NCBI GenBank assembly: GCA_022843925.1
Contig: JALHMS010000007.1
Coordinates: 125,473-189,472, forward strand
Reading direction: 5' to 3'
Origin: Burkholderiales bacterium
GTDB taxonomy: Bacteria; Pseudomonadota; Gammaproteobacteria; Burkholderiales; Ga0077523
Length of the DNA stretch: 64,000 nucleotides
The notes below the pieces were generated by a model. That model ran no database searches, was not told where the DNA came from, and worked only from the letters and a program-made list of their open reading frames with translations. The position numbers and the translations under genes are program-made. Shown here piece by piece: positions 1,025-14,902 of the stretch. Positions within the stretch are counted from its first letter, which is position 1. The number at the start of each line of letters is the position of its first letter.

Positions 1025-1072
1025 GATCCGTCCCCGATGAAGATGCCGGAGACATGATGCCCGAAGGCGGTG

Positions 1073-2524
1073 CTACGCGTCTGCCTTGCGGCCCTTCACG
1101 GCTGTGTAAATCGCGAGCGCTTCTTCGCGCGCCTGCGCGTGGTCGACGACGGGTGCCGGATAGTCCCGACCGATGATCGCGCCGGCGGCCTGCTGGTCGA
1201 TCGGCGGGAGCGTCCAGGGCGCGTGGATGTACTTGCTGGGCACGCGCGCCAGTTCCGGGACGTACATCCGGATGAACCGGCCGTCCGCATCGAACTTCTC
1301 GGACTGCGAGACGGGGTTGAAGATGCGGAAGTACGGCTGTGCATCGCATCCGGTGGAGGCCGCCCATTGCCAGCCGCCGTTGTTGGCCGAGAGATCGAAA
1401 TCGTTCAGGTGATCGGCGAAGTACTGTTCGCCACGGCGCCAGTGCACGTGGAGGTCCTTCACCAGGAAGGACGCTGCGACCATGCGCAGGCGGTTGTGCA
1501 TGTATCCGCTCTTGTTGAGCTGCCGCATGGCCGCGTCGACCAGGGGATATCCGGTGCGACCTTCGCACCACGCTGCGAAGCGGTCGGCGCGATCGGTGAA
1601 CCGGAGCGCGTCGTACTCCGGCTTGAAGCTCCGCTCGACGACGTGCGGGTTGTGCCACAGGATCTGGAAATAGAAGTCGCGCCAAACGAGCTCGGAGAGC
1701 CAACCCTGCGCGCCCTCGGTGCCTCGCGCCCGGGCAGCGCGCGCCAGCTCCCGGATGGAGATCGTGCCGAACCGCAGATGCACCGACAGATAGGACGGCC
1801 CGCGCACCGCCGGAAAATCGCGCCGCTCCTTGTAGGCGTCGATGCGCTCCACGAACTCGTCGAACAACCTGCGGGCGCCGGAGGCGCCGAGGGGGATCTT
1901 CAGCGTCTGGAGATTCGTCGTCTCGAACCCCATCGACGCCAGACTCGGGATCGTCCTCCCGGCGTCCGGTGCCGGTGCCGGTGCCAGCGCCGTCGCATGC
2001 CGCGCAACCGGATAGCTCTGCAGGAAGAAGTCGTCGACGCGCTTCAGCCACGCCGTGCGGTAGGGCGTGAACACGGTGTACGGCGCGCCGGCCTGCGTCA
2101 GCACCTCGTCGCGCTCGCAGACGACCTGATCCTTGAACGTGCGCAGACGCCGGTCGTCGGCCGCGAGCGTGGCTTCGACGGCGGCGTCGCGCGCGATCGC
2201 CTGCGGTTCGTAGTCGTGGTTCGTGTAGACGGCATCGACACCGAGTGCCCGCGCGTGGGCGGGAACGAGGTCCCGCGCACGCCCGTGCAACACGGTGAGG
2301 CCACCGCCCAGCGCCTCGAGCGCGGCCGCGAGTTCCGTCACCGCATGCCAGATGAACTCCACGCGCCGGTCGGCGCGGGACGGCAGCGCATCGAGGATCT
2401 CGGTGTCGAAGACGAACACACACCAGACGGCCCGGGCATCGCGGAGGGCGTGGTACAGGGCGGCGTGGTCATCGGCGCGGAGATCGCGTCGAAACCACAC
2501 GAGGGCGCGGTCGATCGTCTTCAT
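1073..2524 (-). CDS. phrB: Class I CPD deoxyribodipyrimidine photolyase
   Basis: Repairs cyclobutane pyrimidine dimers in DNA with blue/UVA light, using reduced FAD plus an antenna chromophore. The 483-residue length matches class I enzymes. The N-terminal alpha/beta antenna domain begins with the usual LVWFRRDLR motif. The C-terminal half carries the FAD and DNA-binding core: GYPLVDAAMRQL, NRLRMVAASFLVKDL and NNGGWQWAASTGCD, followed by the RIFNPVSQSEKFD motif. It lies in the same minus-strand array as folE2 and the lipid genes, downstream of a 21-bp repeat, and the LitR-like gene at 11151 is the likely controller (inference). Very sure of the family. Confidence 0.97.
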   Translation of the reverse strand: MKTIDRALVWFRRDLRADDHAALYHALRDARAVWCVFVFDTEILDALPSRADRRVEFIWHAVTELAAALEALGGGLTVLHGRARDLVPAHARALGVDAVYTNHDYEPQAIARDAAVEATLAADDRRLRTFKDQVVCERDEVLTQAGAPYTVFTPYRTAWLKRVDDFFLQSYPVARHATALAPAPAPDAGRTIPSLASMGFETTNLQTLKIPLGASGARRLFDEFVERIDAYKERRDFPAVRGPSYLSVHLRFGTISIRELARAARARGTEGAQGWLSELVWRDFYFQILWHNPHVVERSFKPEYDALRFTDRADRFAAWCEGRTGYPLVDAAMRQLNKSGYMHNRLRMVAASFLVKDLHVHWRRGEQYFADHLNDFDLSANNGGWQWAASTGCDAQPYFRIFNPVSQSEKFDADGRFIRMYVPELARVPSKYIHAPWTLPPIDQQAAGAIIGRDYPAPVVDHAQAREEALAIYTAVKGRKADA

Positions 2525-2536
2525 GGGGGGCTGAAG

Positions 2537-2652
2537 CCCTGCGCCGCCGATCTCACGCCCTGCGCCGCCGATCTCACGCCCTGCGCCGCCGATCTCACGC
2601 CCTGCGCCGCCGACCTCACGCCATGCGCCGCCGATCTCACGCCATGCGCCGC
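2537..2652. repeat. 21-bp tandem repeat, about 5.5 copies
   Basis: Direct repeats of a 21-bp word (plus-strand form CCCTGCGCCGCCGATCTCACG) at 2537, 2558, 2579, 2600 and 2621, plus a partial copy to 2652. The array begins inside the last codons of the NTF2-like gene and fills the gap to phrB. Read on the minus strand, each unit contains TGA in the frame of the upstream gene, so the real stop is followed by several more in-frame stops. It looks like slippage or duplication of the gene's 3' end. Confidence 0.9.
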
Positions 2653-3056
2653 ATGAGCCACCGGATGACCGGGCCGATACCCGGCAGCTTCGCGTACAGC
2701 TCCTCCCCCGTATCCCAGTAGTCGCGATGGTTCGCGATTCTGCCGTCGGCTGCGAGGGTCAGGTGCGATGCGCCGTGGATCCGCCACGTCTGCGCGGGGC
2801 GGAACTTGCGCAGCCGGAAAGTGAAGTCCCAGATGAGCACGGCGTCGGCGCCATCCACGATGCGCTGCATGACCTTGAAGCGTGGTTCGTGCATCTCCTC
2901 GAACATGTGTCCGAAGATGGCCTGGATGTCGACGAGCGCCCTGACGTCGTTGAAGGGATCCTTGAAGGTCGCGTCCTCGGTGTAGATCTCGCCGAGGCGG
3001 GCCACCGTCTCCGGTGCGAGCGTCTCGAAGAAGCGGACGATGCCGTCGAGGTCCAT
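2637..3056 (-). CDS. NTF2-like (SnoaL-type) small protein
   Basis: A 139-residue single-domain protein starting MDLDGIVRFFETL, with the pattern of nuclear-transport-factor-2-like folds: YTEDATFKDPFNDVRA near residue 27, then an FxxMFEEMHEPRFKV segment and a W/F-rich beta-sheet half (VLIWDFTFRLRKF, TWRIHGASHL). Such folds bind small hydrophobic ligands or act as isomerases or hydrolases; the substrate is unknown. The start is 1 nt after the TGA of the SDR gene, so the two are translationally coupled. Homologues accompany CFA/FAD/DUF1365 lipid loci in other proteobacteria (established knowledge). The last codons fall in the 21-bp repeat. Confidence 0.85.
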   Translation of the reverse strand: MDLDGIVRFFETLAPETVARLGEIYTEDATFKDPFNDVRALVDIQAIFGHMFEEMHEPRFKVMQRIVDGADAVLIWDFTFRLRKFRPAQTWRIHGASHLTLAADGRIANHRDYWDTGEELYAKLPGIGPVIRWLMRRMA

Positions 3057-3057
3057 G

Positions 3058-3831
3058 TCAGAGCCCCGTGAATCGGTGGGCGATCGGGAAGTACCACCGG
3101 TAGGGCAGCAGACGGAAGAACTTGAGCCAGCCGGTGAATCGCTTGGGATAGTGGATCTCGAAGTGGCCGCGTTCGATGCCCCGCAGCGTGAACGCGGCGG
3201 CCTCGGACGGCTCGATGAGCGCAGGCATCTTGAAGTCGTTGCCGTCGGTGAGCGGCGTGCGCACGAAGCCCGGGTTGACGACGTGCACGGCGATGCCCTT
3301 CGGTGCGAGATCGAAGTAGAGCCCCTCCGCGAAATTGATGAGCGCGGCCTTGGTGGGGCCGTAGGCGAGCGCCTTCGGAAGGCCGCGATAGCCGGCGACG
3401 CTCGACACGATGGCGATGCGACCCTCGCCACGGCGGAGGAACTCGGGGAGCACGGCGGCCGTGACATGGACGACGCCCTGCACGTTCACTTCGAACAGCT
3501 TCCGGACCACTTCGGCGTCCAGTTCCCACGCCCGCATCGCCTGGTAGCTGCCGGCCACCAGCAGGACGTCGTCGATGCCGCCCCAATGCCCGACGAGCGT
3601 CGCATGGGCGGAGTTCACCTGCGCGGCGTCGGTGACATCGAGCGGCAGCACGACCGTTCGCGGGTCCTTCGTCGCCAGCACGTCGAGTGCCTCGCGCTTG
3701 CGTGCCGAGAGCGCGACGCGGGCACCGGCGTCGATGAGGGTCTCGGCGAGCGCGGCGCCGATGCCGGTGGACGCACCGACGATCCAGACGCGCCGGCCGC
3801 GCCAGTCACGCACCGTGGGATTCATGGCCAT
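3058..3831 (-). CDS. Short-chain dehydrogenase/reductase (SDR)
   Basis: A 257-residue classical SDR, cytosolic and NAD(P)-dependent. The Rossmann glycine motif is VGASTGIGAA near residue 18, the NAG-equivalent region is LLVAGSYQ, and the catalytic Ser and Tyr-x3-Lys are in IVSSVAGYRG and AYGPTKAAL. The C-terminal tail is aromatic and basic (GWLKFFRLLPYRWYF) and could bring the enzyme to the membrane, which fits lipid or ketone reduction in this locus. Two ATGs are 6 nt apart (3831 and 3825). A short GTGTC/GACAC palindrome sits just upstream. The gene is separated from the DUF3833 gene by 227 bp, so it may have its own promoter. Confidence 0.9.
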   Translation of the reverse strand: MAMNPTVRDWRGRRVWIVGASTGIGAALAETLIDAGARVALSARKREALDVLATKDPRTVVLPLDVTDAAQVNSAHATLVGHWGGIDDVLLVAGSYQAMRAWELDAEVVRKLFEVNVQGVVHVTAAVLPEFLRRGEGRIAIVSSVAGYRGLPKALAYGPTKAALINFAEGLYFDLAPKGIAVHVVNPGFVRTPLTDGNDFKMPALIEPSEAAAFTLRGIERGHFEIHYPKRFTGWLKFFRLLPYRWYFPIAHRFTGL

Positions 3832-4058
3832 CTAGTGTCCCGACACGGAAGTATCGCGATGTCGCAACGCGCCGCGCGGCAGCATGCCCCGTTGCGAATC
3901 CTCGCCAGATGTCCGATCCGGCTGTGGTTCGCGCCTTGCCGGATGCCCCGCGTCGCGCTCCGACGCCGGACCAATGCAGTGCTCACCCATAGTCCACTCC
4001 TCTCCGCCCGACGATGCCGCGATTGCGATCAATGCTTGCGAACGTCCTTGTCGAGACA
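3832..4058. promoter_or_regulatory. Intergenic gap with two inverted repeats
   Basis: A 227-bp gap inside the minus-strand array, with no coding sequence I can support. Next to the SDR start is the palindrome GTGTC-CC-GACAC (3835-3846), preceded by A; the same word with one change occurs at 34334-34345. A second inverted repeat, ATCCGGC-N15-GCCGGAT, lies at 3916-3944. I see no convincing -35/-10 pair, so whether these are operators, a terminator or a repeat family is open. Confidence 0.4.
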
Positions 4059-4586
4059 CTATCGATCCCGCTTCCGGAAACTCAGGTTGACCTGCGCGAC
4101 CTCGAAACCGAGCTTCGAGATGCTCGAGCGGTTCAGCATCGTGCGTTCATCCATCAGATACATCCAGTCGTCCACGTCGAGGTGCACCGTGCCGTCGCCC
4201 CGGGGGAAGTCGAGCACGTAGCGGAAGCGGAAGGCGTTGCCGGCGGTCTCGCCGATGGCCTCGCCCACGACATCGGCAGCTCGCCCGATGTAGCGGTCGC
4301 CCTGCTTCGTGAGGGTCCACACGCGCTTCTGCGTGCGACCGTCGGAGTAGGTGAACGATTCGTCCAGCGTACCCGTGTCGCCTTGCCAGCTCGCGAGGAT
4401 CAGCACGGTGAAGCGCTGCGAGATCGTGCCGTCGCGGTTGCGGACGATACCCCACGCGTCGATGGTCCCGTCGAAATAGGCTTTCAGGTCGAGGACGGGC
4501 TTCTCGTCGCGGAAGTCACGGATGTCCACCGACGAGCAGGCGGTGAGCGCGAGAAGGCAGAGCGCGAGCAGGGAACGGCGTGTCAT
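4059..4586 (-). CDS. DUF3833-family lipoprotein
   Basis: A 175-residue protein with a lipoprotein signal: MTRRSLLALCLLALTAC, lipobox Leu-Thr-Ala-Cys with Cys17 the acylation site. The mature part matches the DUF3833 pattern: an FDG near residue 39, AWGIVRNRDG, then paired beta strands ending DDWMYLMDERTMLNRSSISK. Function unknown; the family sits in CFA/FAD/DUF1365 clusters and is held near the membrane, so a lipid-binding or transfer role is plausible but unproven. The start overlaps the transporter stop by 4 nt (ATGA), a tight operon sign. Confidence 0.88.
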   Translation of the reverse strand: MTRRSLLALCLLALTACSSVDIRDFRDEKPVLDLKAYFDGTIDAWGIVRNRDGTISQRFTVLILASWQGDTGTLDESFTYSDGRTQKRVWTLTKQGDRYIGRAADVVGEAIGETAGNAFRFRYVLDFPRGDGTVHLDVDDWMYLMDERTMLNRSSISKLGFEVAQVNLSFRKRDR

Positions 4587-5890
4587 GGAGCAGCTCCGGC
4601 GGAGGATCGGACGGAAAGCTCGCGGTCGATGGGCGCGAGCCACAGGAGAACGGCGGCGGCGAGTTGCAGCAGGCAGGGGACCAGCGCATACATGGCGGAC
4701 AGGTCACCCATCGGCGGCTGTGCCGTCCCCGGGCGGTACCCGATGAGGCCGAGCACCGGCAATGCGACGCCCGCAGCCAGCGCCAGTTCCATCTTCTCGG
4801 TGAACTGCCAGAAGCCGAAGTACGCACCTTCGGCGCAGCCGGACCGGTCATGGTCGATGACGTCGGCGAGCAGCGAGGGCGGGAGCGCGAGCTGCGAGCC
4901 GTACGCGATCCCCGAGAGCGCGCAGACCATCGCGAACGCGATGCCGTCGCCGGGGCCGAGCAGGAAGGCCCACGCGAAGGCGACGACGCTGGCGCCCATG
5001 CCCGCCGCCCAGACGCGCTTCTTGCCGAAGGCGCGGGACGCCCGTACCCACAGAGGCATGCCGAGCGCGCCGAACAGGAAATAGATGCCGAGAAAGACCG
5101 CGTTCATGTCGGACCGGTCGAGCACGTCCTGCACGAAGAAGAGGATGAGCGTCGCGGGGATCGCCGCCGCGATGCCGCTCACCATGAAGACCGCGAGCAG
5201 CCAGCGGAACGACGGATTCGCGAGCGGCGCGAAGATGCTCGACAGGGGCAGCAGCCTCGCGCCGGTAGCACCATCCGCCGGCCGCGGTGCGAGGAAGAGC
5301 GTGATGCCGGCGCCGGTCAGGAGCACCGGGATGAACACGAGACTGAACCGGCGCAGCCCTTCGGCGTGGCTGCCGCCCTGGGTGAGCAGTTCGGGCAATG
5401 CCGCGGCGACGAGCACGCCGATCACGCCCACCGCACCGCGCGCCGCGGTGACGCGGGTGCGCTCGTGGTAGTCGGGCGAGAGTTCGGCCCCCTGCGCGAA
5501 GTAGGCGATGGCGCCGAGGCTGAATCCGAGGTACGTGACGGCGAGGGCACCGCACAGCCAGACGGTGAGGGCGACGCTGCCGATGCGGGGCGGATGGAAC
5601 AGGGCGAGCACCCCGCAGCCGAGCAGCACGACAGCCGCGACGATGAAACCCTGTCGGCTGGTGCCCGCGGCCGCGCGACGATCGATCCACCAGCCGATCA
5701 GCGGGTCCTGCGCGGCGTCCACGATCCGCGCGAGCAGCAGGACGAGTCCGACGGTCGCGAGGGGCAGCCCGAGTTCGTCGGCGTACAGCTTGGGCACGTG
5801 CACATAGACGGGCAGCACCGCCATGGCGAGCGGCAGGGCGAACGCCGCGTACGCCGCGAGCCCGGCGGGGCCGAGGACTCGCGCGGTCAT
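4583..5890 (-). CDS. MFS transporter, GPH (sugar:cation symporter) type
   Basis: A 435-residue integral membrane protein with about 12 hydrophobic segments. The family loop after helix 2 is present (ARIVDAAQDPLIGWWIDRR, the GPH DP-xIG motif), and a matching loop occurs in the second half (DVIDHDRSGCAEGAYFGFWQF). GPH members import glycosides or other small solutes with a cation, but the copy in Rhodobacter-type lipid loci has no proven substrate. The start overlaps the stop of the chalcone-isomerase-like gene by 4 nt, and the stop overlaps the DUF3833 start. Transport of a lipid precursor is only a guess from context. Confidence 0.9.
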   Translation of the reverse strand: MTARVLGPAGLAAYAAFALPLAMAVLPVYVHVPKLYADELGLPLATVGLVLLLARIVDAAQDPLIGWWIDRRAAAGTSRQGFIVAAVVLLGCGVLALFHPPRIGSVALTVWLCGALAVTYLGFSLGAIAYFAQGAELSPDYHERTRVTAARGAVGVIGVLVAAALPELLTQGGSHAEGLRRFSLVFIPVLLTGAGITLFLAPRPADGATGARLLPLSSIFAPLANPSFRWLLAVFMVSGIAAAIPATLILFFVQDVLDRSDMNAVFLGIYFLFGALGMPLWVRASRAFGKKRVWAAGMGASVVAFAWAFLLGPGDGIAFAMVCALSGIAYGSQLALPPSLLADVIDHDRSGCAEGAYFGFWQFTEKMELALAAGVALPVLGLIGYRPGTAQPPMGDLSAMYALVPCLLQLAAAVLLWLAPIDRELSVRSSAGAAP

Positions 5891-6432
5891 TTCTGTCCCA
5901 GCAGCGCCGCTCGGAGCTTGGGTTCCCGCGTGCGCGGATCGAGCCAGATCGAGAAGAAGGCGCGGGCGAATTCGGGGTCCCGGACGATGCCGGTCGAGCG
6001 GTCCTGGTGATAGAACTCCACCCCGACACCGGGGCGGAACACGCCAGTGATGTGCTGGCCCTTCGCGACGTCGGGAAAGGCTGCGATCATGAAGGCACGC
6101 CACTTCTCGAGGCGTCCGTCGTCGCCCAGGCCGAGCCTCCGGATCTCGTCGACGCTCGCGTCGGCGAGCTTCCGACCCTGGAAATCGCGGGCGTACCGGA
6201 TATCGAGCGCAAAGGATCGATCCCATCGCCACTCGGTGCCGGAGATGGGGCCGGCCACCCAGAGCGACGCGTCGTACAGGAGCAGCCCGAACCAGCGCAT
6301 GCGCCCCTGGCCGACCTGCCGGACCTCGGCGTCGGAAGTGGACAACTCGGCGATCGGCAGGCGCGTGTTGGCGTCGACGATCGAGGCGCCGACGAGGGCC
6401 AGCGCGAGCAGCAGGCGGACGATTCTAGACAC
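5887..6432 (-). CDS. Chalcone isomerase-like exported protein
   Basis: A 181-residue protein with an N-terminal signal peptide (to about residue 21). The core reads GRMRWFGLLLYDASLWV, FALDIRYARDFQGRKLA and EKWRAFMIAAFPDVAKGQHITGV, the pattern of the bacterial chalcone-isomerase-like family (Chalcone_3). In plants, relatives with this fold bind fatty acids, so a periplasmic fatty-acid-binding role near lipid-modifying enzymes is reasonable; isomerase activity is not implied. It overlaps the CFA-like gene by 8 nt upstream and the transporter by 4 nt downstream. Confidence 0.85.
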   Translation of the reverse strand: MSRIVRLLLALALVGASIVDANTRLPIAELSTSDAEVRQVGQGRMRWFGLLLYDASLWVAGPISGTEWRWDRSFALDIRYARDFQGRKLADASVDEIRRLGLGDDGRLEKWRAFMIAAFPDVAKGQHITGVFRPGVGVEFYHQDRSTGIVRDPEFARAFFSIWLDPRTREPKLRAALLGQK

Positions 6433-7651
6433 GCTTCAGCTCGACCTGGAGAACATCGATCGTACGCGCCCGGAACCCGGCCTCGCAGTAGGCGAGGTAG
6501 AAGTTCCAGAGGCGGACGAATCGATCGTCGAAGCCCTTCCCTTGAAGCTCGGGGACGCAGCTGTTGAAGCGGTGGCGCCATCGGCGGAGCGTCTCGGCGT
6601 AATCGAACCCGAAGGCGGTGGCCTGGCCGACGACGAGGCCCTGCTGGAATGCGCGATCCCTGAAGATATCCTCCGAGGGGAGCATTCCTCCGGGAAAGAC
6701 GTACTGCTGGATGAAGTCGGTGCCGTTGCGATAGCGCGTGAACAACTCGTTCGCGATGACGATCGTCTGGATGACGGCCCGGCCGCCGCGCTTCAGGGTG
6801 TCGCGGACCTTGCGGAAGTAGACGGGCCAGTAGTGCTCGCCGACCGCTTCGAACATCTCGATCGAGACCACGTGGTCGTACTGGCCGCGGACGTCGCGGT
6901 AGTCGACCAGTTCGAACGTGGCACGGTCGCCGATTCCCTGTGTGGCGATGCGGTGCTGCGCGTGCGCAAGCTGCTCGGTCGAGAGCGTGATGCCGTGGAC
7001 GCGGCAGCCGCGCGTACGGACGGCGTACTCCGCGAAGCCCCCCCACCCGCAACCGATCTCCAGCACGCGATGCTCAGCCGTGAGGCCGAGGAGGCGGCAG
7101 ATGCGCTCGTACTTCGCCATCTGCGCCTGCTCCAGGGGGCGCTTCGCCTGCCCTTCGAACATCGCGGCCGAGTACGTCATCGTGTCGTCGAGCCAGAGCC
7201 GGTAGAAGTCGTTGCCGAGGTCGTAGTGCGCGTGGATGTTCCGCTTCGCCTGACCGCGGCGGTTGCCGCGGAAAAGATGGCGCATCCGGTAGGCGAGCCC
7301 GCCCCACCAACGCCCGTAGATCGCGCGCTCGAGCGCGGCGTGGTTCGCCGCCGCGAGTTCCAGCAGGGCGGTGAGATCCGGGGAATCCCAGCGGCCGGCC
7401 ATGAAGGCCTCTGCGAAACCGATGTCACCCGAGCGGATGATGTCGGCGCAGACCTCCCAGTCGTGGAGGCGCAGCATCGCGTGGGGCCCCGTGAACCCGG
7501 AAGAGAAGGTGCGGGGGATGCCGTCGGGGCCGATGAGATCCAGCCGTCCAACGCGGAGTCGTTGCAGAAGCTTCAGCAGGAATCGGGCAGCGCGAGACTC
7601 GGGCTGCGCCGTGATGGGGTAAGTGGTTGCGGGCATGTCGTCCGGTTTCAT
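6425..7651 (-). CDS. CFA synthase-like lipid methyltransferase (UfaM-like)
   Basis: SAM-dependent enzyme acting on unsaturated acyl chains of membrane phospholipids, 408 residues. Class I SAM motif VLEIGCGWGGFAEYA near residue 180; CFA signatures HYDLGNDFYRLWLDDTMTYS before it, VSIEMFEAVGEHYW with the active-site Glu, and FYLAYCEAGFR near the C terminus. With an FAD oxidoreductase and DUF1365 upstream it fits the methyltransferase of furan-containing or related methylated fatty acids rather than a housekeeping Cfa. I chose ATG at 7651 because the region further upstream is a promoter/operator. It has its own promoter within the array. Confidence 0.9.
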   Translation of the reverse strand: MKPDDMPATTYPITAQPESRAARFLLKLLQRLRVGRLDLIGPDGIPRTFSSGFTGPHAMLRLHDWEVCADIIRSGDIGFAEAFMAGRWDSPDLTALLELAAANHAALERAIYGRWWGGLAYRMRHLFRGNRRGQAKRNIHAHYDLGNDFYRLWLDDTMTYSAAMFEGQAKRPLEQAQMAKYERICRLLGLTAEHRVLEIGCGWGGFAEYAVRTRGCRVHGITLSTEQLAHAQHRIATQGIGDRATFELVDYRDVRGQYDHVVSIEMFEAVGEHYWPVYFRKVRDTLKRGGRAVIQTIVIANELFTRYRNGTDFIQQYVFPGGMLPSEDIFRDRAFQQGLVVGQATAFGFDYAETLRRWRHRFNSCVPELQGKGFDDRFVRLWNFYLAYCEAGFRARTIDVLQVELKRV

Positions 7652-7713
7652 CGCGTCGTTTCGCGGGTCGGTGGCAGCGGTCTCGGATGGAGCGAAACCC
7701 CGGTGTTGACACT

Positions 7714-7749
7714 GTCTACCAGTATGATCCGCACGGTAGACGGCGTCAA
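7714..7749 (-). promoter_or_regulatory. Promoter with overlapping operator for the CFA-like gene
   Basis: On the minus strand, -35 TTGACG (7749-7744) and -10 CATACT (7726-7721) are 17 bp apart. A perfect inverted repeat GTCTACC-N14-GGTAGAC (7714-7741) has one arm in the spacer and the other just past the -10. An operator here would block RNA polymerase. The site fills most of the 94-bp gap between DUF1365 and the CFA-like gene, and the -35 overlaps the DUF1365 stop. Control by the LitR-like protein at 11151 is inference. Confidence 0.55.
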
Positions 7750-8492
7750 CTTCTCGAATGGAAGGGCACACCCTTCCACCAGAGTTTCAACGCCTGCCAG
7801 TGGATGCGGGCGATCACGCCCAGGGTCATCCACGGATACGCGAAGAAGCACCGCGACAGCGCCCCACCCGTGAGCGGTTCTCCCCGCCCCGCAATCGATG
7901 TGAGCAGAAGTTTACCGTCACCATCGTCGTAGTCGATGCGAATCCTGGTTCGTTCCGTGCCCGCATCGAACTGGAACCGGTAGTCGCCCGAGACGGTGCA
8001 GAAGGGGGAAACGTGAAAGACCTTGCGCGCGCCCACGACATCGCCGGGGACGATCGGCTCGCCGTCGTTCCGTGCAACGAGGTAATTGTGGTGTTCCCCG
8101 AACGTGTTGTTCACTTCGGCCAGCACGGCACGAAGCCGCCCCGCCCGGTCATGACACAACCAGAAACTGACGGGGTTGAAGACGTATCCGAGCACCCGCG
8201 GGAACGCCTGCAGCCAGATGTCGCCGTCCACGTCGTCGAGTCCGGCCGCCGCCAGTGTCGCGCGGATCCAGGGAAGCAGCGGAGAGCCGTCCCGCGGACC
8301 GTGATCCGCACGGCGGAAGGTCATCAGTCCGAACGGATCGAGACGCCGGCACCCGCCCGCGGCATCGATCTCCGCGACCCGCAGACGCACGAAATACACG
8401 GGATAGATGAACCGGTTCCGCGCTGGCCGGACCCGGTGATGCATGACTTCGCCGCGGAACAGCAGGGCGTCGGGGTGGGCCGCGGTGGTCAT
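7746..8492 (-). CDS. DUF1365 protein
   Basis: A 248-residue DUF1365 member: opening LLFRGEVMHHRVRPARNRF, then FPRVLGYVFNPVSFWLCHD and VLAEVNNTFGEHHNY, and a C-terminal PWMTLGVIARIHWQALKLWWKGVPF segment. The biochemical role is unresolved. The family is nearly always between an FAD-dependent oxidoreductase and a CFA-type methyltransferase, as here, so it is assumed to help make modified fatty acids. The start codon at 8492 overlaps the oxidoreductase stop (ATGA). Confidence 0.92.
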   Translation of the reverse strand: MTTAAHPDALLFRGEVMHHRVRPARNRFIYPVYFVRLRVAEIDAAGGCRRLDPFGLMTFRRADHGPRDGSPLLPWIRATLAAAGLDDVDGDIWLQAFPRVLGYVFNPVSFWLCHDRAGRLRAVLAEVNNTFGEHHNYLVARNDGEPIVPGDVVGARKVFHVSPFCTVSGDYRFQFDAGTERTRIRIDYDDGDGKLLLTSIAGRGEPLTGGALSRCFFAYPWMTLGVIARIHWQALKLWWKGVPFHSRS

Positions 8493-9763
8493 GCCGCTAC
8501 GGCCCGCGACTGCCACGGCGCCTGGACGCCGAGCGAATTCGCTACGGTGATGGCGGAGAGCAGGCCGTCCTCGTGGAAGCCATAGCGCGTCCACGCACCG
8601 CAGAACCAGGTGCGTCTGCGCCCCTGCAGCCCGGGCAGACGCCGCTGGGCGGCGATGGCGGGGCCGTCGAAGATCGGGTGCGCGTAGGTGATGCGGCGGA
8701 GCACGGTCCCGGGAGCGGGCTCCCTCAGGGGATTCAGTGTGACCATCACCGGCTTCGTGCAGGGGAGTGGCTGGAGACGGTTGATCAGGTAGCTCACCGA
8801 AACCGGGCGCCCCGCGGCCTGGGCGCCACCGGCAAGGTAGTTCCATGCGGACCAGGCTTCCCGCATCCGGGGCAGCAGGGTGGCGTCCGTGTGCAGCCAC
8901 GCTTCGTTGTCCTGGTAGCGGACGTCCCCGAGCGTGCCGCGCTCGACGGAGTCCGCATCGGCGAGCAGCCGCAACGCCTGGTCGCTGTGACACGCGAGAA
9001 CGACGCCATCGAAGACGTCCTCACCGGCGGCGGTCTCGAGGAAGATGGCGTTCTCTTCCCTGGTGATCCTGCGGACGGGCGTCCCGATCCTGGCGTCGGA
9101 TATGCCCTCGACCAACCGCTTCACGTACTCCCGGCCACCGCCCGCGACGGTCCGCCAGCGCGGTCGGTCGTTCACCTGCAGCAGGCCGTGGTTGTGGCAG
9201 AAGCGAAGGAAGGTGTCGGCCGGATACTCGAGCATGCTGGCCGTCGGGCACGACCAGATGGCGGCACTCATCGGCAGCAGGTACCAATCACGGAATGCCC
9301 TACCGTAGCCGCCGGCGGCCAGGAAATCCGCGATGGACCCCCGGGCAGGCTTGCCGTCGGTGACACAGCGGGTGCCCTCCCTGTTGAACCGGAGGATGTC
9401 CTTGAGCATGCCCCAGAACTCCGGTTTCACGAGGTTCCGCTTTTGCGCAAACACGGTGGCGAGGCTGCTGCCTGCCCACTCGAGCCTGTCCTCGTCGATA
9501 CGGACGCTGAACGACATCTCGCTCTCGACCGACGACACGCCGAGATGATCGAACAGGGCGCAGAGATTCGGATAGGTGCGCTCGTTGAACACCAGGAACC
9601 CGGTGTCGACCGGGAACCGGTGACCGTCGACGTGCACATCGACGGTATGCGTGTGCCCGCCGGCGTAGTCCGCCGCCTCGAAAAGCGTGACCCGATGCTC
9701 CCGCGACAACAGCCAGGCAGCGGACAATCCGGCAATACCTCCGCCGACTACAGCCAGTCGCAT
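8489..9763 (-). CDS. FAD-dependent oxidoreductase (amine-oxidase/desaturase-like)
   Basis: A 424-residue flavoprotein. The dinucleotide-binding motif VVGGGIAGLSAAWLLS starts at residue 5 after MRLA, followed by GGHTHTVDV and FPVDTGFLVFNE, and the FAD C-terminal motif FCGAWTRYGFHEDGLLSA. This is the family paired with CFA-like methyltransferases; in Rhodobacter a related enzyme acts as the desaturase on the methylated chain during furan fatty-acid synthesis (established knowledge, Ufa pathway). The start at 9763 is set by the Rossmann motif. Coupled to DUF1365 by a 4-nt overlap, and 35 bp after folE2. Confidence 0.9.
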   Translation of the reverse strand: MRLAVVGGGIAGLSAAWLLSREHRVTLFEAADYAGGHTHTVDVHVDGHRFPVDTGFLVFNERTYPNLCALFDHLGVSSVESEMSFSVRIDEDRLEWAGSSLATVFAQKRNLVKPEFWGMLKDILRFNREGTRCVTDGKPARGSIADFLAAGGYGRAFRDWYLLPMSAAIWSCPTASMLEYPADTFLRFCHNHGLLQVNDRPRWRTVAGGGREYVKRLVEGISDARIGTPVRRITREENAIFLETAAGEDVFDGVVLACHSDQALRLLADADSVERGTLGDVRYQDNEAWLHTDATLLPRMREAWSAWNYLAGGAQAAGRPVSVSYLINRLQPLPCTKPVMVTLNPLREPAPGTVLRRITYAHPIFDGPAIAAQRRLPGLQGRRRTWFCGAWTRYGFHEDGLLSAITVANSLGVQAPWQSRAVAA

Positions 9764-9798
9764 CAGGTCTCCCCGTACGTTCTTCGACGCAGGAGGCG

Positions 9799-10602
9799 CT
9801 ATCCGCGCTTGTCGTGCCGGATCAGCGCGTACGCCGAATGATTGTGGATGGACTCGAAGTTCTCGGATTCGATCACATACGCCTCGACCCGCGGGTCGGC
9901 ATTCAGCCGCAGGGCGATGTCTCGAACGAGATCCTCCACGAACTTCGGGTTGTCGTAGGCCCGCTCGGTGACCCACTTCTCGTCTGGACGCTTCAGGAGA
10001 CCGAACACCTCGCAGGATGCTTCCTGCTCGGCGATCGTGGCCAGTTCCTCGATGGTGATGTCGCCACCGATCTCGGCGTCGATGGTAATCATGGAACGCT
10101 GGTTGTGGGCCCCGTAGGCCGAAATTTCCTTCGAGCACGGGCACAGGCTGGTCACCGGCGCGATCACGGTGACGTTGCAGACCGTGGACTTTCCGACCAG
10201 CCGCTCGGCGCGCAGCTTCACCTGGTAGTCGAGCACGCTTTCGACGCCGGACACCGGCGCCCGCTTGGTGATGAAATAGGGGAAGCGCAATTCGATGTAG
10301 CCGGCGTCCGCGCCGAGCCGCGACAGCATCGCCTCCATGAGGTCGCGCAATCCTGCGGTATCCATCGGTGCCTTGTGGGCCTGCAGAATCTCGATGAACC
10401 GGGACATGTGGGTCCCTTTCACGTCCCCAGGCAGCGTGACGTACATGTCGGCAGTCACGACCGTATGCACCACACTGCCATCGCGCGCGCGGACGGACAA
10501 CGGATGCACCAGCGACCGGATTCCGACGCGGTCGATCGCGATGGAACGAGTATCGAGGATGGACTGGATGTCAGGCAGGGGGAGGCGTTCGGGCGCATTC
10601 AT
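9799..10602 (-). CDS. folE2: GTP cyclohydrolase FolE2 (type IB)
   Basis: Converts GTP to dihydroneopterin triphosphate, the first step of folate and pterin synthesis. The 267-residue length and motifs fit FolE2 rather than FolE: AYIELRFP-like YIELRFPYF, VTSLCPCSKEIS with the metal-ligand Cys, AYGAHNQRS, and ESENFESIHNHSAYA with the distal Glu and His. FolE2 can work with metals other than zinc. A pterin/folate supply gene beside photolyases makes sense because CPD photolyases use methenyl-tetrahydrofolate as antenna. A strong hairpin lies in its leader. Confidence 0.95.
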   Translation of the reverse strand: MNAPERLPLPDIQSILDTRSIAIDRVGIRSLVHPLSVRARDGSVVHTVVTADMYVTLPGDVKGTHMSRFIEILQAHKAPMDTAGLRDLMEAMLSRLGADAGYIELRFPYFITKRAPVSGVESVLDYQVKLRAERLVGKSTVCNVTVIAPVTSLCPCSKEISAYGAHNQRSMITIDAEIGGDITIEELATIAEQEASCEVFGLLKRPDEKWVTERAYDNPKFVEDLVRDIALRLNADPRVEAYVIESENFESIHNHSAYALIRHDKRG

Positions 10603-10625
10603 CGTTTGTCATCTTCCTGTGGGAA

Positions 10626-10689
10626 TCAGGTCGCAGGCGATCCGCGCGGGGGTGACGCGCGGGTGAGGGGAGACTTGCCTGCGACCTGA
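10626..10689 (-). promoter_or_regulatory. Long stem-loop in the folE2 leader
   Basis: A perfect 13-bp inverted repeat, TCAGGTCGCAGGC (10626-10638) and GCCTGCGACCTGA (10677-10689), encloses a 38-nt loop that contains a smaller CGCGCG-rich pairing. It occupies most of the 101-bp gap between the exported-protein gene and folE2 and ends about 23 nt before the start codon, just upstream of an AGGAAG ribosome-binding site. There is no U-run, so a simple terminator is unlikely. A processing site, attenuator or riboswitch-like element is possible; I do not recognise a known class. Confidence 0.55.
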
Positions 10690-10703
10690 AAGGGTTGCTG
10701 CCG

Positions 10704-11045
10704 TCAGTTGACCGATTCCATCCGGACAGACCACGGCAGAATCACGGGCCGGACGCCAGCCTCGGCGCGACCGTGCATCTCGAGATACTGCGCCAGGGCT
10801 TCGGCCTCCCCGGGGGAAGCTTCGACAGCGCCGGACTCCGTTGCATGCTTGTCCAGGACAAAGGCATCCATGGTAAGTTCACGAAGACCACCCCGCACCG
10901 CGCCGCCGAGATCGGACATCGACACCGCCGTGGTGCCGTCCTTGCGTTCGTTTGCCGAGGCGCCTGCGGGCGCCACCAAGACCGTCGCGCCGATGACCAG
11001 GAGCGAGACCAAATTCACCGCCGGAGACTTCCGTATCGAATTCAT
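10704..11045 (-). CDS. Small exported protein next to LitR
   Basis: A 113-residue protein with a signal peptide (MNSIRKSPAVNLVSLLVIG, cleavage around ASA near residue 31). The mature part is short and acidic, with no cysteine and no family I recognise. It is divergent from the LitR-like gene and directly downstream of the best promoter/operator of the region, so it is probably the first gene of the light-controlled array, ahead of folE2. Its position, not its sequence, is what suggests a role. Confidence 0.7.
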   Translation of the reverse strand: MNSIRKSPAVNLVSLLVIGATVLVAPAGASANERKDGTTAVSMSDLGGAVRGGLRELTMDAFVLDKHATESGAVEASPGEAEALAQYLEMHGRAEAGVRPVILPWSVRMESVN

Positions 11046-11081
11046 TCGTTCTTGTCCTAGTCAGAAACAGTAGGTGGACGT

Positions 11082-11125
11082 AGAATACGAACGTCGTCCA
11101 AGCCTGTCAAACGTTTTGCTTGGAC
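11082..11125 (-). promoter_or_regulatory. Promoter and operator between LitR and the light-linked array
   Basis: On the minus strand there is a perfect -35 TTGACA (11110-11105), a 17-bp spacer and -10 TATTCT (11087-11082). A perfect inverted repeat GTCCAAGC-N14-GCTTGGAC (11096-11125) is centred on the -35. A looser repeat, GTCCTA...TAGGtGGAC, lies at 11054-11079 between promoter and gene. Operators placed over the -35 suit repression by a MerR/LitR tetramer in the dark. The protein that binds is inferred from adjacency. Confidence 0.65.
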
Positions 11126-11150
11126 ATTTCTGCGACAAAGGTGGAACGCA

Positions 11151-12170
11151 GTGCGTATCGAGACGACCGAAGCCTCACCCGGGACGGCCACCACCGCCCC
11201 TTCCGACGAATCTCGCCTTTCCGGAGCCTCCATGACTGGGGAACCCATGACCGGAGAAACCCTCTCCGGCGATCGCATGGCGATGCTTTCCATCAGCGCC
11301 GTCGAGCGCGACACGGGATTGTCGAAAGACGTGCTTCGCATGTGGGAGCGAAGGTACGAATTTCCACACCCCAAGCGCGATCGCCATGGCGAGCGCGTCT
11401 ACCCGCCCGATCAGGTCACCAAGCTACGGGCGATCAAGCGCCTCATGGACCGCGGATTCCGGCCTGGCAAGATCATCGGGATGTCGATCGACGACCTCAA
11501 CTCGCTAGGCTCCACCGCGGCCAACCGCGACGGCCACGACGAGGAGGTCGAGGCGATCCTGGATCTCGTCCGCGCCCACCAGCTGCCGGAGCTGCGGCAG
11601 CGACTCACGCAGATGTTGATGCGCCAGGGCCTGCAGCGGTTCGTCATCGATACCGTAGCGCCCCTCACGATGGCGGTGGGCGAAGCCTGGGTGCGCGGCG
11701 ACTTCGCGGTGTTCGAGGAGCACCTCTACACGGAGCAGATCCAGGGCGTGCTGCGCAACGCCATCGCCTCTGCCCAGGTCCACAGCAAGTCGCCCCGCGT
11801 CCTGCTCACTTCCTTCCCCAGCGAGCAGCATCATCTCGGCCTGCTCATGGTCGAGGCGCTGTTGGTGGTCGAAGGCGCGACCTGCATCCCGCTCGGCACC
11901 GAGACGCCGGCCTCCGAGATCGTGCGCGCCGTGGGCGCCCACCGGGTGGACGTCGTCGCTCTTTCGTTCAGCGCAGCGTATCCGGAGCGCCAGGCCGCCT
12001 CCGGGCTGAAGGAACTTCGCGCTAGCCTGCCGAAGAACGTGCATATCTGGGCCGGCGGGAGCTGCGTGCGACGCATGCGGCGCGGCATCGACGGCGTCGA
12101 ACTCGTCCGCGCCCTCGACGAGATCGCACGGCTGATCTCGCACTGGAACACCGACCATCCGCGCAACTGA
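11151..12170 (+). CDS. litR: LitR/CarH-type MerR regulator, cobalamin photoreceptor
   Basis: A 339-residue regulator with an N-terminal MerR helix-turn-helix (LSISAVERDTGLSKDVLRMW, residues 46-65, wing to about 110) and a C-terminal cobalamin-binding module. It carries the W-x9-EH signature (W180, E190, H191) that caps adenosylcobalamin in CarH, and E225-x-H227-x-x-G230, which supplies the lower histidine ligand; AGGSC near residue 301 fits the Rossmann part. In CarH/LitR, light breaks the Co-C bond, the tetramer falls apart and target genes are released. GTG start at 11151, with AAAGGTGG about 6 nt upstream. An extra Thr/Ser-rich 40-residue N-terminus may not all be translated (ATG also at 11233). 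Confidence 0.9.
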   Translation: MRIETTEASPGTATTAPSDESRLSGASMTGEPMTGETLSGDRMAMLSISAVERDTGLSKDVLRMWERRYEFPHPKRDRHGERVYPPDQVTKLRAIKRLMDRGFRPGKIIGMSIDDLNSLGSTAANRDGHDEEVEAILDLVRAHQLPELRQRLTQMLMRQGLQRFVIDTVAPLTMAVGEAWVRGDFAVFEEHLYTEQIQGVLRNAIASAQVHSKSPRVLLTSFPSEQHHLGLLMVEALLVVEGATCIPLGTETPASEIVRAVGAHRVDVVALSFSAAYPERQAASGLKELRASLPKNVHIWAGGSCVRRMRRGIDGVELVRALDEIARLISHWNTDHPRN

Positions 12171-12269
12171 GGCACCGATCCCCGCACCACGCCCGGATCG
12201 TACGGATCCGGCGCACTGGTTCCCTCCTGCCGTCGCACCCGCTTTCCATCAGCTCCCTGCCGCTCTCCC

Positions 12270-12416
12270 ATGCCGGGTCATCGCAAGCCGCTCCCCGTGA
12301 AGATCTGCGCCCGCTGCGGGCGTCCGATGACCTGGCGGAAGCGTTGGGCGCGCAGCTGGGATGAGGTCCGCTACTGCTCGGACCGCTGTCGCGCAGAGGC
12401 ACGGCGTGGCGGCTGA
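12270..12416 (+). CDS. DUF2256 zinc-finger-like small protein
   Basis: A 48-residue protein, [20 protein letters not shown] at its start, then WRKRW, and YCSDRCR near the end. Two CxxC-type knuckles (C13/C16 and C37/C40) should bind one zinc. This is the DUF2256 pattern; members are small and are very often next to cryptochrome/photolyase genes. The last 11 nt overlap the GTG start of the photolyase, so the two are translated together. Function unknown; a helper for photolyase assembly or DNA binding is inference. Confidence 0.88.
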
Positions 12417-13941
12417 GATCGCACTGGTCCTCGGGGACCACCTCACCCTCGAGAATCCCGCCCTCGCCCGGATCGACCGGGCACGGGACAGCGTCCTGAT
12501 GATCGAGGCGCCGGGCGAGGCGCGACACGTCTGGAGCCACAAGGCTCGGATCGCCCTCTTCCTTTCGGCGATGCGCCATTTCGCCGCCACCCTGCGCGAG
12601 GCGGGTTTCCGCGTGCACTACCTCGAGGTCGACGATGCGTCCCTGCCTGCGAGCCTGCCCGAACGCCTCGGCCACTTCCTGGCCACCCACGCACCGTCCA
12701 GGATCTGGATGTGCGAAGCGGGCGAGCGCCGTCTTGCCGATGCGCTCGCCGCCGCGGCGGCGGCGCGGACCACCCCCCTGACCAGTCTTGCGGACCCCCA
12801 TTTCCTGGTCTCGATGGAGGCCTTCTCGCGCTGGGCAGGCGACAAGTCGAGCCTGCGCATGGAGTTCTTCTACCGTCACGTGCGGCGCGAGACCGGCGTG
12901 CTGATGGATGGCGATGCCCCGGTCGGCGGTCAATGGAATTTCGACGCCGACAACCGCAAGGGCTTCGGCGCCAAGGGCCCCGGCCTCGTCCCGACGCCCC
13001 CGCGCTATCCGCCGGACGCCATCACGCAGGCGGTCTTCGCGACCGTCGAACGCGAGTTCGGCGATCACCCGGGGAGCCTCGACAGCTTCGGATGGCCGGT
13101 GACCCGCGCCCAGGCGCTGGATGCGCTGCATCGCTTCGTCGAGGAGCGGCTCGCCGCCTTCGGTCCCTTCCAGGACGCGATGTGGAGCAACGAACCGTTC
13201 CTCTGGCACTCGCTCCTGTCCACCAGCCTGAATCTGAAGCTGCTGGACCCGCGGGAGGTGATCGATGCCGCGGTCCGCGCGTGGCAGGAACGCCGCCTGC
13301 CGCTCGCGAGCGTGGAGGGGTTCGTGCGGCAGATCCTCGGATGGCGCGAGTTCATCCGCGGGGTGTACTGGCACTGGCCCGATCTCGGCAGGCTCAACCA
13401 CTTCGAGCATCACCGTGCGCTGCCGGCGTGGTTCTGGACCGGCGAAACATCCATGAATTGCCTGCGGGACGCCATCGGCCAGACGCTGCGCCACGGCTAT
13501 GCCCATCACATCCAGCGGCTCATGATCACGGGCAACTTCGCTCTGCTGGCGGAGCTTTCCCCGCAGGCGGTGTGCGACTGGTATCTGGCGGTCTACGTGG
13601 ATGCGGTGGAGTGGGTCGAACTACCCAACACCGCAGGCATGGCACTGCACGCGTGCGGCCCCCGCTTCACCAGCAAGCCGTACATCGCGTCGGGCGCCTA
13701 CGTGAAGCGCATGAGCAACCACTGCAAGGGCTGCCGGTACGACCCCGGAGTGCGCGTCGGACCGGGGGCGTGCCCGATCACGCTGCTATACTGGGCCTTC
13801 GTCGACAAGCATGCCGCCACCCTCTCGGCCAACCCCAGGACCGTGACGATGACCAGCAATCTGGAACGTCTTCCCGTCGCCGATCGTCAATCGATACGGA
13901 CGGCCGCCCGGGACGTACTTGCAGCGATCGACTCCCTGTAG
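12406..13941 (+). CDS. FeS-BCP (6-4) photolyase / cryptochrome
   Basis: Prokaryotic photolyase-like flavoprotein (Pfam DPRP type), 511 residues from GTG at 12406. Members repair (6-4) photoproducts using FAD, a [4Fe-4S] cluster and a dimethyl-ribityllumazine antenna. The four cluster cysteines are visible: C352 ([10 protein letters not shown]), C440 and C443 (CKGC), and C456 ([10 protein letters not shown]), almost the same positions as in Agrobacterium PhrB. Other signatures are ALVLGDHL at the start, [15 protein letters not shown], and ELPNTAGM. The GTG is favoured over an upstream ATG because GAGG precedes it and it couples to the DUF2256 gene. Confidence 0.95.
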
Positions 13942-13945
13942 TGGC

Positions 13946-14902
13946 ATGGCTGCGGCGCGTGACATCATCCGACAAGAAGCGCCTTCGACCCGACTGCCCC
14001 AAGACCCAAGCCCCGCGACCGCGGCCCAGCTCCGCCGCAAGGTGAACCGCATGCTTTACCCCGAACTCTTCAAGTCCCTGGAACGCGTCCGTTGGCACAT
14101 GGATCGCGACATTCCGTGGGACAACTTCGACCCCGCCCGCCTCTCCGACGAGCAGGCCCGGACCATCAAGATGAACGCCATCACCGAGTGGGCGGCCCTG
14201 CCCGCCACGGAGATGTTCCTGCGCGACAACGTCGACGACAGCGACTTCTCGGCCTTCATGTCGGTCTGGTTCTTCGAGGAACAGAAGCACTCCCTCGTCC
14301 TGATGGAATACCTGCAGCGCTTCCGGCCCGACCTCGTGCCCACCGAGGAGGAACTGCACGCGGTGCGCTTCCATTTCGACCCGGCGCCCGCGCAGGAAAC
14401 CCTGATGCTGCACTTCTGCGGCGAGATCCGCCTGAACCACTGGTATCGCTGCGCTGCCGAGTGGCACACCGAACCGGTGATCCAGCACATCTACCGCCTG
14501 ATCTCGCGCGACGAGGCCCGCCATGCCGGCGCGTACCTGCAGTACATGCGCCGCATGATCGACAAGCTGGGGGACGAAGCCCGCTCCGCATTCGCACGCA
14601 TCGGCATGCTGATGGCCAGCTCGGCGCGCAGCAGCAAGCCACTGCACCCGACCAATCTGCACGTGAACGCGTCTCTGTTCCCGAACGACACCGTGCAGTC
14701 ACGGCTGCCCGAACCCGAATGGCTGGAGCACTGGCTCGATCAGCAGATCCGCTTCGGCAAGGAATGGGAGGCGAAGGTGGTGGGCATGATCCTCACCAAC
14801 CTTTCCCTGCTGTTCGACCGCACCATCGGGACGGTGCAGGAGCTGAACCGGTACCGGAAGGAACTCGGACGCGCGAAGACGGCGGAACCCAGCACCGCCT
14901 GA
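13946..14902 (+). CDS. Ferritin-like di-iron protein
   Basis: A 318-residue helical protein starting 4 nt after the photolyase stop. It has the four ligand helices of a di-iron site: E in WAALPATEMFL, EEQKH in VWFFEEQKHSLV, E in CAAEWHTEP, and DEARH in ISRDEARHAGAY. The spacing resembles acyl-ACP desaturase and other R2-like oxygenases. Substrate unknown. Operon position behind DUF2256 and the FeS photolyase suggests it oxidises a lipid or pigment in the light response, or protects against peroxide; this is inference. The C-terminal 100 residues (RLPEPEWLEHWLDQQ onward) are probably helical. Confidence 0.8.
   Translation: MAAARDIIRQEAPSTRLPQDPSPATAAQLRRKVNRMLYPELFKSLERVRWHMDRDIPWDNFDPARLSDEQARTIKMNAITEWAALPATEMFLRDNVDDSDFSAFMSVWFFEEQKHSLVLMEYLQRFRPDLVPTEEELHAVRFHFDPAPAQETLMLHFCGEIRLNHWYRCAAEWHTEPVIQHIYRLISRDEARHAGAYLQYMRRMIDKLGDEARSAFARIGMLMASSARSSKPLHPTNLHVNASLFPNDTVQSRLPEPEWLEHWLDQQIRFGKEWEAKVVGMILTNLSLLFDRTIGTVQELNRYRKELGRAKTAEPSTA

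Follow-up and report, generated by a model that had tools for sequence, protein, structure and literature searches.

The gene at 11,151 to 12,170 in a 64,000-bp stretch of the genome of a Burkholderiales bacterium (contig JALHMS010000007.1 of assembly GCA_022843925.1, positions 125,473 to 189,472; this whole stretch is called the window here) encodes a LitR/CarH-type regulator. The closest described systems are the CarH and LitR regulators of classes I, II and III and the CtMerR protein of Chloracidobacterium thermophilum. The regulator is probably an adenosylcobalamin (AdoCbl)-dependent, light-released repressor of the CarH kind which acts on the operon divergent from it.

Class I includes Thermus thermophilus CarH (TtCarH), Bacillus megaterium LitR and Myxococcus CarH. 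With these proteins the window regulator shares the MerR helix-turn-helix, the helical bundle with the Wx9EH motif, the Rossmann B12 domain with its lower-axial His and the predicted fold. The Wx9EH cap is described as missing from MetH and as defining CarH homologues (PMC8156234). The published SignatureFinder light signature consists of GxxW, EH, GxxH and GxxxP, and the position of the upper-axial His of TtCarH (H132) varies in working photoreceptors (PMC11796333); the upper-axial His was therefore taken as part of the TtCarH mechanism and not as family-defining. Compared with class I, the window regulator showed 33% identity to TtCarH, the closest solved sequence (84 of 257 aligned positions), and had no upper-axial His. 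Its predicted operators were palindromic and often paired at 63 or 74 bp, instead of the tandem 11-bp direct repeats of class I (PMC9304148), and its predicted targets were furan-fatty-acid, folate and photolyase genes instead of carotenoid genes. Operators in the CarH family have been termed plastic, and one arm of the window-type operator fits the published TnnACA segment of class I (PMC9304148). A photolyase gene is also found near TtCarH on pTT27, one gene (phytoene synthase) away.

CtMerR (PDB 8JBS/8JBT) is a photoactive MerR-B12 protein which, like the window regulator, has no upper-axial His; the residue at the H132 position is Arg in this protein, and light nevertheless cleaves its Co-C bond (PMC11796333). 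The sequence similarity of the two proteins was weak (phmmer 2e-5) and the DNA-binding domain of CtMerR is reported to be unlike that of TtCarH (PMC11796333). Class II LitR proteins of Pseudomonas, which act with a short LOV protein (PplR/PmlR), have similar targets (photolyase, short-chain dehydrogenase, FAD oxidoreductase, ufaM and GTP cyclohydrolase) and also two operators at the promoter (PMC9758184). In P. mendocina, phrB and ufaM are induced by light and folE, not folE2, weakly (PMC9758184). Membership in class II, which is known here by description, was rejected since the window regulator has the B12-binding domain PF02310 above cut-off, its genome yielded no short LOV gene and its predicted operator is of the TTTGTCC type and not TGTACA-N12-TGTACA. 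This agrees with a preliminary description of the window, which had set the regulator apart from the LOV-dependent LitR of Pseudomonas. Class III LitR (Burkholderia multivorans) belongs to the same betaproteobacterial LitR family and is described as having a C-terminus unlike a B12 domain, whereas the B12 domain of the window regulator is intact by both its PF02310 match and its fold in the Foldseek search, which does not fit this class.

Regulator and cobalamin pocket

The regulator has a length of 339 aa from the presumed GTG start at 11151, which is preceded by AAGGTGG. The start is tentative, with conservation beginning from about residue 44. With this numbering, W180-VRGDFAVFE-E190-H191 and E225-Q-H227-H-L-G230 were read in the open reading frame (ORF), which places the pocket residues named in the preliminary description (W180/E190/H191 and E225/H227/G230) where it had put them; its ORF coordinates are right if GTG 11151 is the start. 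The Pfam search gave a MerR_1 match with an E-value of 2.5e-15, a PF02310 match of 37.6 bits against a cut-off of 32.1 and a B12-binding_2 match slightly below its cut-off (21.5 against 23). The NCBIfam CarH model scored 119.6 bits, far under the equivalog cut-off of 400 bits. Alignment with TtCarH paired W180, E190, H191 and H227 with W131, E141, H142 and H177, by which H227 is the lower-axial His of the B12 domain.

An AlphaFold model of the regulator from 42 sequences had a mean pLDDT of 90.6. Full-length TtCarH chains were the top 12 Foldseek matches of this model, with TM scores near 0.5-0.6 and a high root-mean-square deviation, and TtCarH cobalamin-domain entries in the best 50 matches had TM scores of 0.73-0.84 by target length. 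We read the low full-length scores as the two domains probably being placed differently in the model than in TtCarH.

A genome scan with 17 relatives as queries produced at least 574 relatives, and the best-scoring 80 (L087-L166) were analysed, so that the invariance reported here is biased toward similar sequences. Most titles named Betaproteobacteria or a betaproteobacterial genus, some read simply Proteobacteria or bacterium, and that of L103 read Gammaproteobacteria; the genera included Thauera, Zoogloea, Dechloromonas, Accumulibacter, Noviherbaspirillum and others. Nine pocket positions (G177, W180, E190, H191, E225, H227, G230, G249 and P253) were identical in all 80 relatives, as was the Wx9EH cap, while position 181, at the place of TtCarH H132, varied freely (M in 22, E in 16, L in 14, A in 14, V in 6, I in 4 and a single residue type in each of the last 4). 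Of the published B12 motif ExHx2Gx41SxV/Tx22-27GG, the part ExHx2Gx41S with a later GG was also present in the regulator and in all 80, and SxV/T in only six. Overall, the invariant residues and the fold argue strongly for cobalamin binding by the regulator.

A quick tree of 62 rows placed the branch of the window apart from TtCarH, which had a long branch, and from a second group of the L170/L171/L185 type, with many weak nodes and long branches. These three UfaM- or Phr-linked homologues keep the W, EH and H residues, and in L171 they are kept with PF02310 below the cut-off, which indicates that a low Pfam score alone is no proof of pocket loss.

Predicted operators and promoter

The intergenic regions examined were those separating LitR from the divergent operon, and only where folE2 or the FAD gene was divergent within 1.5 kb. 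A total of 88 regions were collected and 8 near-duplicates were dropped, leaving 80 with the window included; the background was 20 rounds of mononucleotide shuffles of the 80 regions. A de novo search with no prior motif found TGTC-N3-GACA in 72 of the 80 regions against 0.67 expected. Judged from this sequence evidence, the longer palindrome TTTGTCC(T/A)(A/G)GACAAA is likely the operator of the regulator. The best match to TTTGTCNNNGACAAA had 0 mismatches in 40 regions, 1 in 22, 2 in 11, 3 in 4 and more in 3. Matches within one mismatch thus occurred in 62 regions and in none of the shuffled rounds, the pattern being derived from the same regions. As a check on the pattern, 29 further upstream regions were searched: 16 had a site at ≤1 mismatch, 3 had one at 2 mismatches and 10 had none under 3. 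Perfect copies were also present at the more distant homologues L173, L174, L176 and L177, and no such copy was present at the TtCarH region (L086), L171 or L185.

Candidate pairs were searched no more than 260 bp from the end of LitR, with a spacing of 30-110 bp and summed mismatches ≤4. Pairs were found in 48 of the 80 regions, with a spacing of 62-64 bp in 33 and 72-76 bp in 15 (approximately 6 or 7 helical turns) and with 63 bp as the commonest value (25 of 48 pairs). A pair with 74-bp spacing at Azoarcus sp. KH32C (L082) was regarded as a strong site. GTCAA, which is the -35 hexamer TTGAC on the other strand, or TTGAC itself lay in the 14 bp before the LitR-proximal site in 32 of the 48 pairs.

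Three putative operators (O1, O2 and O3) were located in the window (Table 1). A matrix trained outside the genus ranked position 10848 (O3) first, 11051 (O1) second and 11114 (O2) eighth of 63,984 positions in the window, and O3 was one of just two places in the whole genome at ≤1 mismatch to TTTGTCCNNGACAAA. Two promoter-like sites were found in 10600-11300 against 0.1 expected in shuffles. As the sigma-70-like TTGACA-17-TATTCT lies between 11051 and 11114, O1 and O2 bracket the likely promoter of the leftward operon. The operators support control of this operon from about 11045 down only. The view that regulation is shown for the whole region 545-14902, which had been described as one light-response locus, was rejected: the operators support the divergent promoter only, and this support does not extend to ORF 545-1024 or to the rightward DUF2256, photolyase-related and diiron genes. 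ORF 545-1024 was not counted with the locus, as Pfam gave no match for it and the near relatives retrieved do not clearly extend that far.

In six whole genomes of the genus, the pattern at ≤1 mismatch gave 16 rows, corresponding to 11 places, and the reversed control pattern gave 4 rows. Since 8 of the 11 places were at the LitR locus, the "hub" of the preliminary description is retained in the sense of a local switch, with one candidate target besides. A near-operator in G003 (C17) was treated as chance as it lies inside a coding ORF; a further place is in G006 (C38).

The candidate extra target is a fasciclin-domain gene. The operator scan itself placed a 1-mismatch operator-like site at G000:C39:28128-28142 (locus L210/L212, outside the window), approximately 65 bp upstream of the ATG of this gene. 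Other fasciclin genes had a site with 2 mismatches in the near-identical genome G006 and with 1 mismatch in G021, and on a plasmid of Eleftheria terrae (L083) LitR and a fasciclin gene are immediate, divergent neighbours separated by a region with two perfect operators. A site at ≤1 mismatch occurred in 0.3% of random 360-bp stretches of fasciclin loci. Counting against a second target, the other 12 of the 15 fasciclin loci examined had no site under 3 mismatches. In G003 a fasciclin gene (C46:122519-123819) lies less than 1 kb from a ChrR-like cupin gene, a hint that fasciclin may be part of photo-oxidative stress regulons.

Gene content and synteny of the locus

The neighbourhood of the regulator is as the preliminary description had it, with a photolyase gene on one side, a photolyase-related gene on the other, folE2 and genes of lipid metabolism (Table 1). 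The furan-fatty-acid pathway of Rhodobacter sphaeroides consists of UfaD (FAD-type desaturase), UfaO (DUF1365) and UfaM (S-adenosylmethionine (SAM)-dependent methylase) (PMC7380195). By family and gene order, three genes of the window match these types, and their roles are proposed by analogy.

Table 1. Coordinates of the regulator gene, the putative operators and promoter, and neighbouring genes in the window.
Feature	Coordinates	Strand	Remarks
LitR/CarH-type regulator	11151..12170	+	N-terminal extension 1-44, MerR helix-turn-helix 45-110, helical bundle (Wx9EH), Rossmann B12 domain
Putative operator O1 (CTTGTCCTAGTCAGA)	11051..11065	.	Downstream of leftward -10, before ATG 11045; 3 mismatches to TTTGTCNNNGACAAA
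Putative operator O2, degenerate	11114..11128	.	Beside -35, 63 bp from O1; 4 mismatches by eye; weak in this species
Putative operator O3 (CTTGTCCAGGACAAA)	10848..10862	.	1 mismatch; 203 bp from O1, inside first small ORF
Sigma-70-like promoter TTGACA-17-TATTCT, leftward operon	11082..11110	-	10 of 12; between O1 and O2
Small fast-evolving ORF, first in leftward operon	10704..11045	-	Signal-like N-terminus (by eye)
folE2, GTP cyclohydrolase	9799..10602	-	
FAD-dependent UfaD-like desaturase	8489..9769	-	Start approximate; role by analogy (PMC7380195)
DUF1365, UfaO-like	7746..8522	-	Start approximate; role by analogy (PMC7380195)
UfaM-like SAM-dependent fatty-acyl methylase (CMAS family)	6425..7771	-	Role by analogy (PMC7380195)
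Chalcone-isomerase-like protein	5887..6432	-	
MFS_2 transporter	4583..5860	-	Start approximate; ORF extends to 6232
DUF3833 protein	4059..4643	-	Start approximate
Short-chain dehydrogenase	3058..3831	-	
SnoaL-like protein	2637..3059	-	Approximate
Deoxyribodipyrimidine photolyase	1073..2524	-	
DUF2256, 48 aa	12270..12416	+	Between LitR and DPRP
Photolyase-related protein (DPRP)	12361..13941	+	First ATG of ORF; true start probably slightly later
Diiron (ferritin-like/AurF-like) protein	13919..14902	+	Start approximate; weak Pfam matches

Among relatives with long flanks (L034-L053), LitR was divergent from folE2 and/or the FAD gene in 18 of 20. In the 80 named loci, folE2 or the FAD gene was divergent within 1.5 kb of LitR in 64, folE2 was near LitR in 30 and the diiron gene in 26. 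The FAD, DUF1365 and CMAS genes were all near LitR in 65 of the 80, so the usual partner across the branch is the ufaD-ufaO-ufaM-like furan-fatty-acid operon. A photolyase or DPRP gene was near LitR in 14 of the 80, a lower bound since contig ends truncate many of the loci. The preliminary description of the locus is qualified in this respect; in the window, two photolyase-family genes flank the regulator.

Of 60 whole genomes of relatives, 24 had a LitR match of ≥180 bits and every one of these also had DUF1365, which was present in 6 of the remaining 36 (Fisher p 3e-11). The threshold of 180 bits for a LitR ortholog was our own choice, and 11 of the 24 LitR genomes belong to one genus and are not independent. 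G009, from the same genus as the window, was without both LitR and DUF1365. In G048, among the 24, DUF1365 is far from LitR. In G016 and G027 (among the 24) and G033 (among the six), the neighbour of DUF1365, at approximately 5-6 kb, is a second and more distant type of MerR-B12 protein, and these genomes either lack the window-type LitR or have it at another place.

The small ORF 10704-11045 had a counterpart of 102-114 codons (stop included) in the same place in 8 of the 11 genus loci checked. Its C-terminus carries a loosely kept YLEMHGR...MPW, with a similar ending in L094. The diiron protein showed 71-85% identity in relatives and 97% in the near-identical L034, and is perhaps a lipid or pterin oxygenase. 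Three repeats were also observed: a 21-bp GC-rich tandem repeat of 5.6 copies at 2536-2652, where it separates the photolyase gene from the SnoaL gene; at 1-533, past the end of the light operon, two copies of a long direct repeat (228 nt, 88%) rich in inverted repeats; and a 130-bp tandem repeat of 7.7 copies with 93% matches at 41974-42974.

Other sensors and cofactor supply

The search for a short LOV gene in the genome of the window was negative; this genome is 99% complete, so that a missing stretch is possible. The LOV-domain search gave 4 hits at E≤1e-12, all in frames of ≥727 aa, and the LOV motif pattern matched one gene of the genome, which was PAS-PAS-LOV-GGDEF-like with domains assigned by eye. 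None of the 80 named loci contained the motif GxNCR(F/I/L)L(Q/M), and a search of the window for the class II operator T(G/A)TACA-N12-TGTA(C/T)A gave 0 hits at ≤2 mismatches. Two BLUF proteins are encoded in the genome (C7, 482-aa frame; C5, 184-aa frame). The congeners G008 and G010, whose genomes are 91% and 95% complete, have an intact LitR and no BLUF match. Cupin_7, a ChrR-like domain, had 9 matches in the genome, and the listed G000 matches were not at the LitR locus. Finally, a PduO-type adenosyltransferase and two cobalamin riboswitches indicate that the genome handles B12.

Discussion

The residues, fold, synteny, operator and promoter overlap described above were established by computation. 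Repression of the divergent operon is suggested by the position of the operators, and light as the signal by the cap over the adenosyl group, the presence of photolyases and the fact that homologous genes of Pseudomonas are induced by light (PMC9758184). In the dark, a cobalamin-bound oligomer would sit on the paired palindromes around the divergent promoter and block it. In the light, the Co-C bond would be broken, the adenosyl group would exit the W180/E190/H191 cap and the protein would come off the DNA. The operon would then be turned on, producing the small, putatively secreted protein, FolE2, the UfaD-UfaO-UfaM-like proteins and, in this genus, the photolyase. As the upper-axial His was found in 0 of 80 relatives, the step from photolysis to release, which is the point of most interest, could not go through the bis-His switch of TtCarH; it may involve a Glu/water rearrangement as in CtMerR (PMC11796333) or altered pair-wise DNA binding.

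Several observations weigh against a light-released, AdoCbl-dependent repressor. Residue 181 of the regulator, at the position of TtCarH H132, is Val, and none of the 80 relatives has His there. Residue 224 is Ser, which gives SEQH in place of the published GxxH, and Gly stands there in only 15 of the 80 relatives. The regulator thus has three of the four elements of the light signature (GEAW, EH and GTETP), and the classic B12 motif SxV/T reads S-F-S. The H132A variant of TtCarH was mostly tetrameric in light in one study, with an earlier report of disassembly noted in the same source (PMC10442372). The direct light sensing proposed in the preliminary description is therefore not simply transferable from TtCarH. 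Its CarH-like and probably cobalamin-binding regulator, heading a set of photoprotection genes, is supported. On the DNA side, two of the three operators in the window are degraded (3 and 4 mismatches; O3 is stronger), 32 of the 80 regions had no operator pair, 3 of the 80 had no site within 3 mismatches, and the further regions without a site under 3 mismatches add to this. The low count of photolyase neighbours and the two BLUF proteins belong here as well. Finally, L027 (G048, locus L182) and L061 (G338, locus L180) have lost the W, the EH His and the lower His and keep parts of the locus, with operator-like sites of 0 mismatches in L182 and 2 in L180, and the regulon is therefore probably able to function in the absence of B12. 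These two may be cases of B12 independence evolving in place.

The main rival, which we consider unlikely, is that the regulator senses the AdoCbl level or redox state, repressing when AdoCbl is plentiful, so that the operon follows B12 state or oxidation and not light. The branch-wide absence of the upper-axial His fits this, as loss of that residue blunts light disassembly of TtCarH and also slows Co(I) decay (PMC10442372), and so does the usual partnership with a membrane-lipid pathway with a photolyase near only 14 of 80; a rise of the furan-fatty-acid product in R. sphaeroides chrR mutants (PMC7380195) can be cited in its favour too. However, the Wx9EH cap that distinguishes CarH homologues from MetH (PMC8156234) is invariant, CtMerR is photocleaved with Arg at the H132 position (PMC11796333), and two photolyase-family genes flank the window regulator. 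The rise in chrR mutants, together with the 9 Cupin_7 matches, could also point to an operon mainly under a singlet-oxygen sigma factor and ChrR as in R. sphaeroides, with LitR minor or autoregulatory. Such control appears improbable, since the putative operators bracket a sigma-70-like promoter, pairs lie beside TTGAC in 32 of 48 cases, and Cupin_7 is a broad family whose listed G000 matches are away from the LitR locus.

A separate LOV or BLUF sensor might instead pull the regulator off the DNA, as in P. mendocina (PmlR2/short LOV) and Escherichia coli (BluF/BluR), leaving the B12 pocket secondary. The two BLUF proteins and a BLUF gene that in Comamonas endophytica (L084) lies approximately 3 kb from the LitR homologue would suit such a sensor, but G008 and G010 keep an intact LitR without a BLUF match, all 4 LOV-like hits are in long frames and the GxNCR(F/I/L)L(Q/M) motif is absent from the 80 named loci, which leaves little room for it. 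The regulator could also be a relic in the sense of L027 and L061, B12-independent and acting as a constitutive repressor or on another ligand; with the pocket residues all kept in the window regulator and invariant in 80 relatives, this is the least probable of the explanations. The reading preferred here is that of a CarH-type repressor that depends on AdoCbl and is released by light.

Regulators of the CarH/LitR kind are already known. To our knowledge, the palindromic phased operator, the control of a furan-fatty-acid regulon by a B12 protein and the branch-wide absence of the upper-axial His are new, and no paper on them turned up in the literature searched, a priority that is not certain as the search was thin on subscription journals. 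With slightly more doubt than confidence, we propose that in a large proteobacterial branch Co-C photolysis leads to DNA release without an upper-axial His, on helically phased pairs of palindromes that bracket the promoter, and controls membrane furan fatty acids, some lineages having gained control of photorepair as well. Independence of B12 would have arisen in place more than once (L027 and L061), a possible model for the origin of the class II, LOV-driven LitR proteins.

The locus provides a readable operator and regulon for a regulator family that is common in Betaproteobacteria, and it connects light, vitamin B12 and furan fatty acids. Across bacteria, the sensor in charge of a similar photoprotection gene set would differ, being B12-based here, a LOV protein in Pseudomonas and ChrR with its sigma factor in Rhodobacter. 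CarH-type switching without a bis-His ligand change becomes testable in this family.
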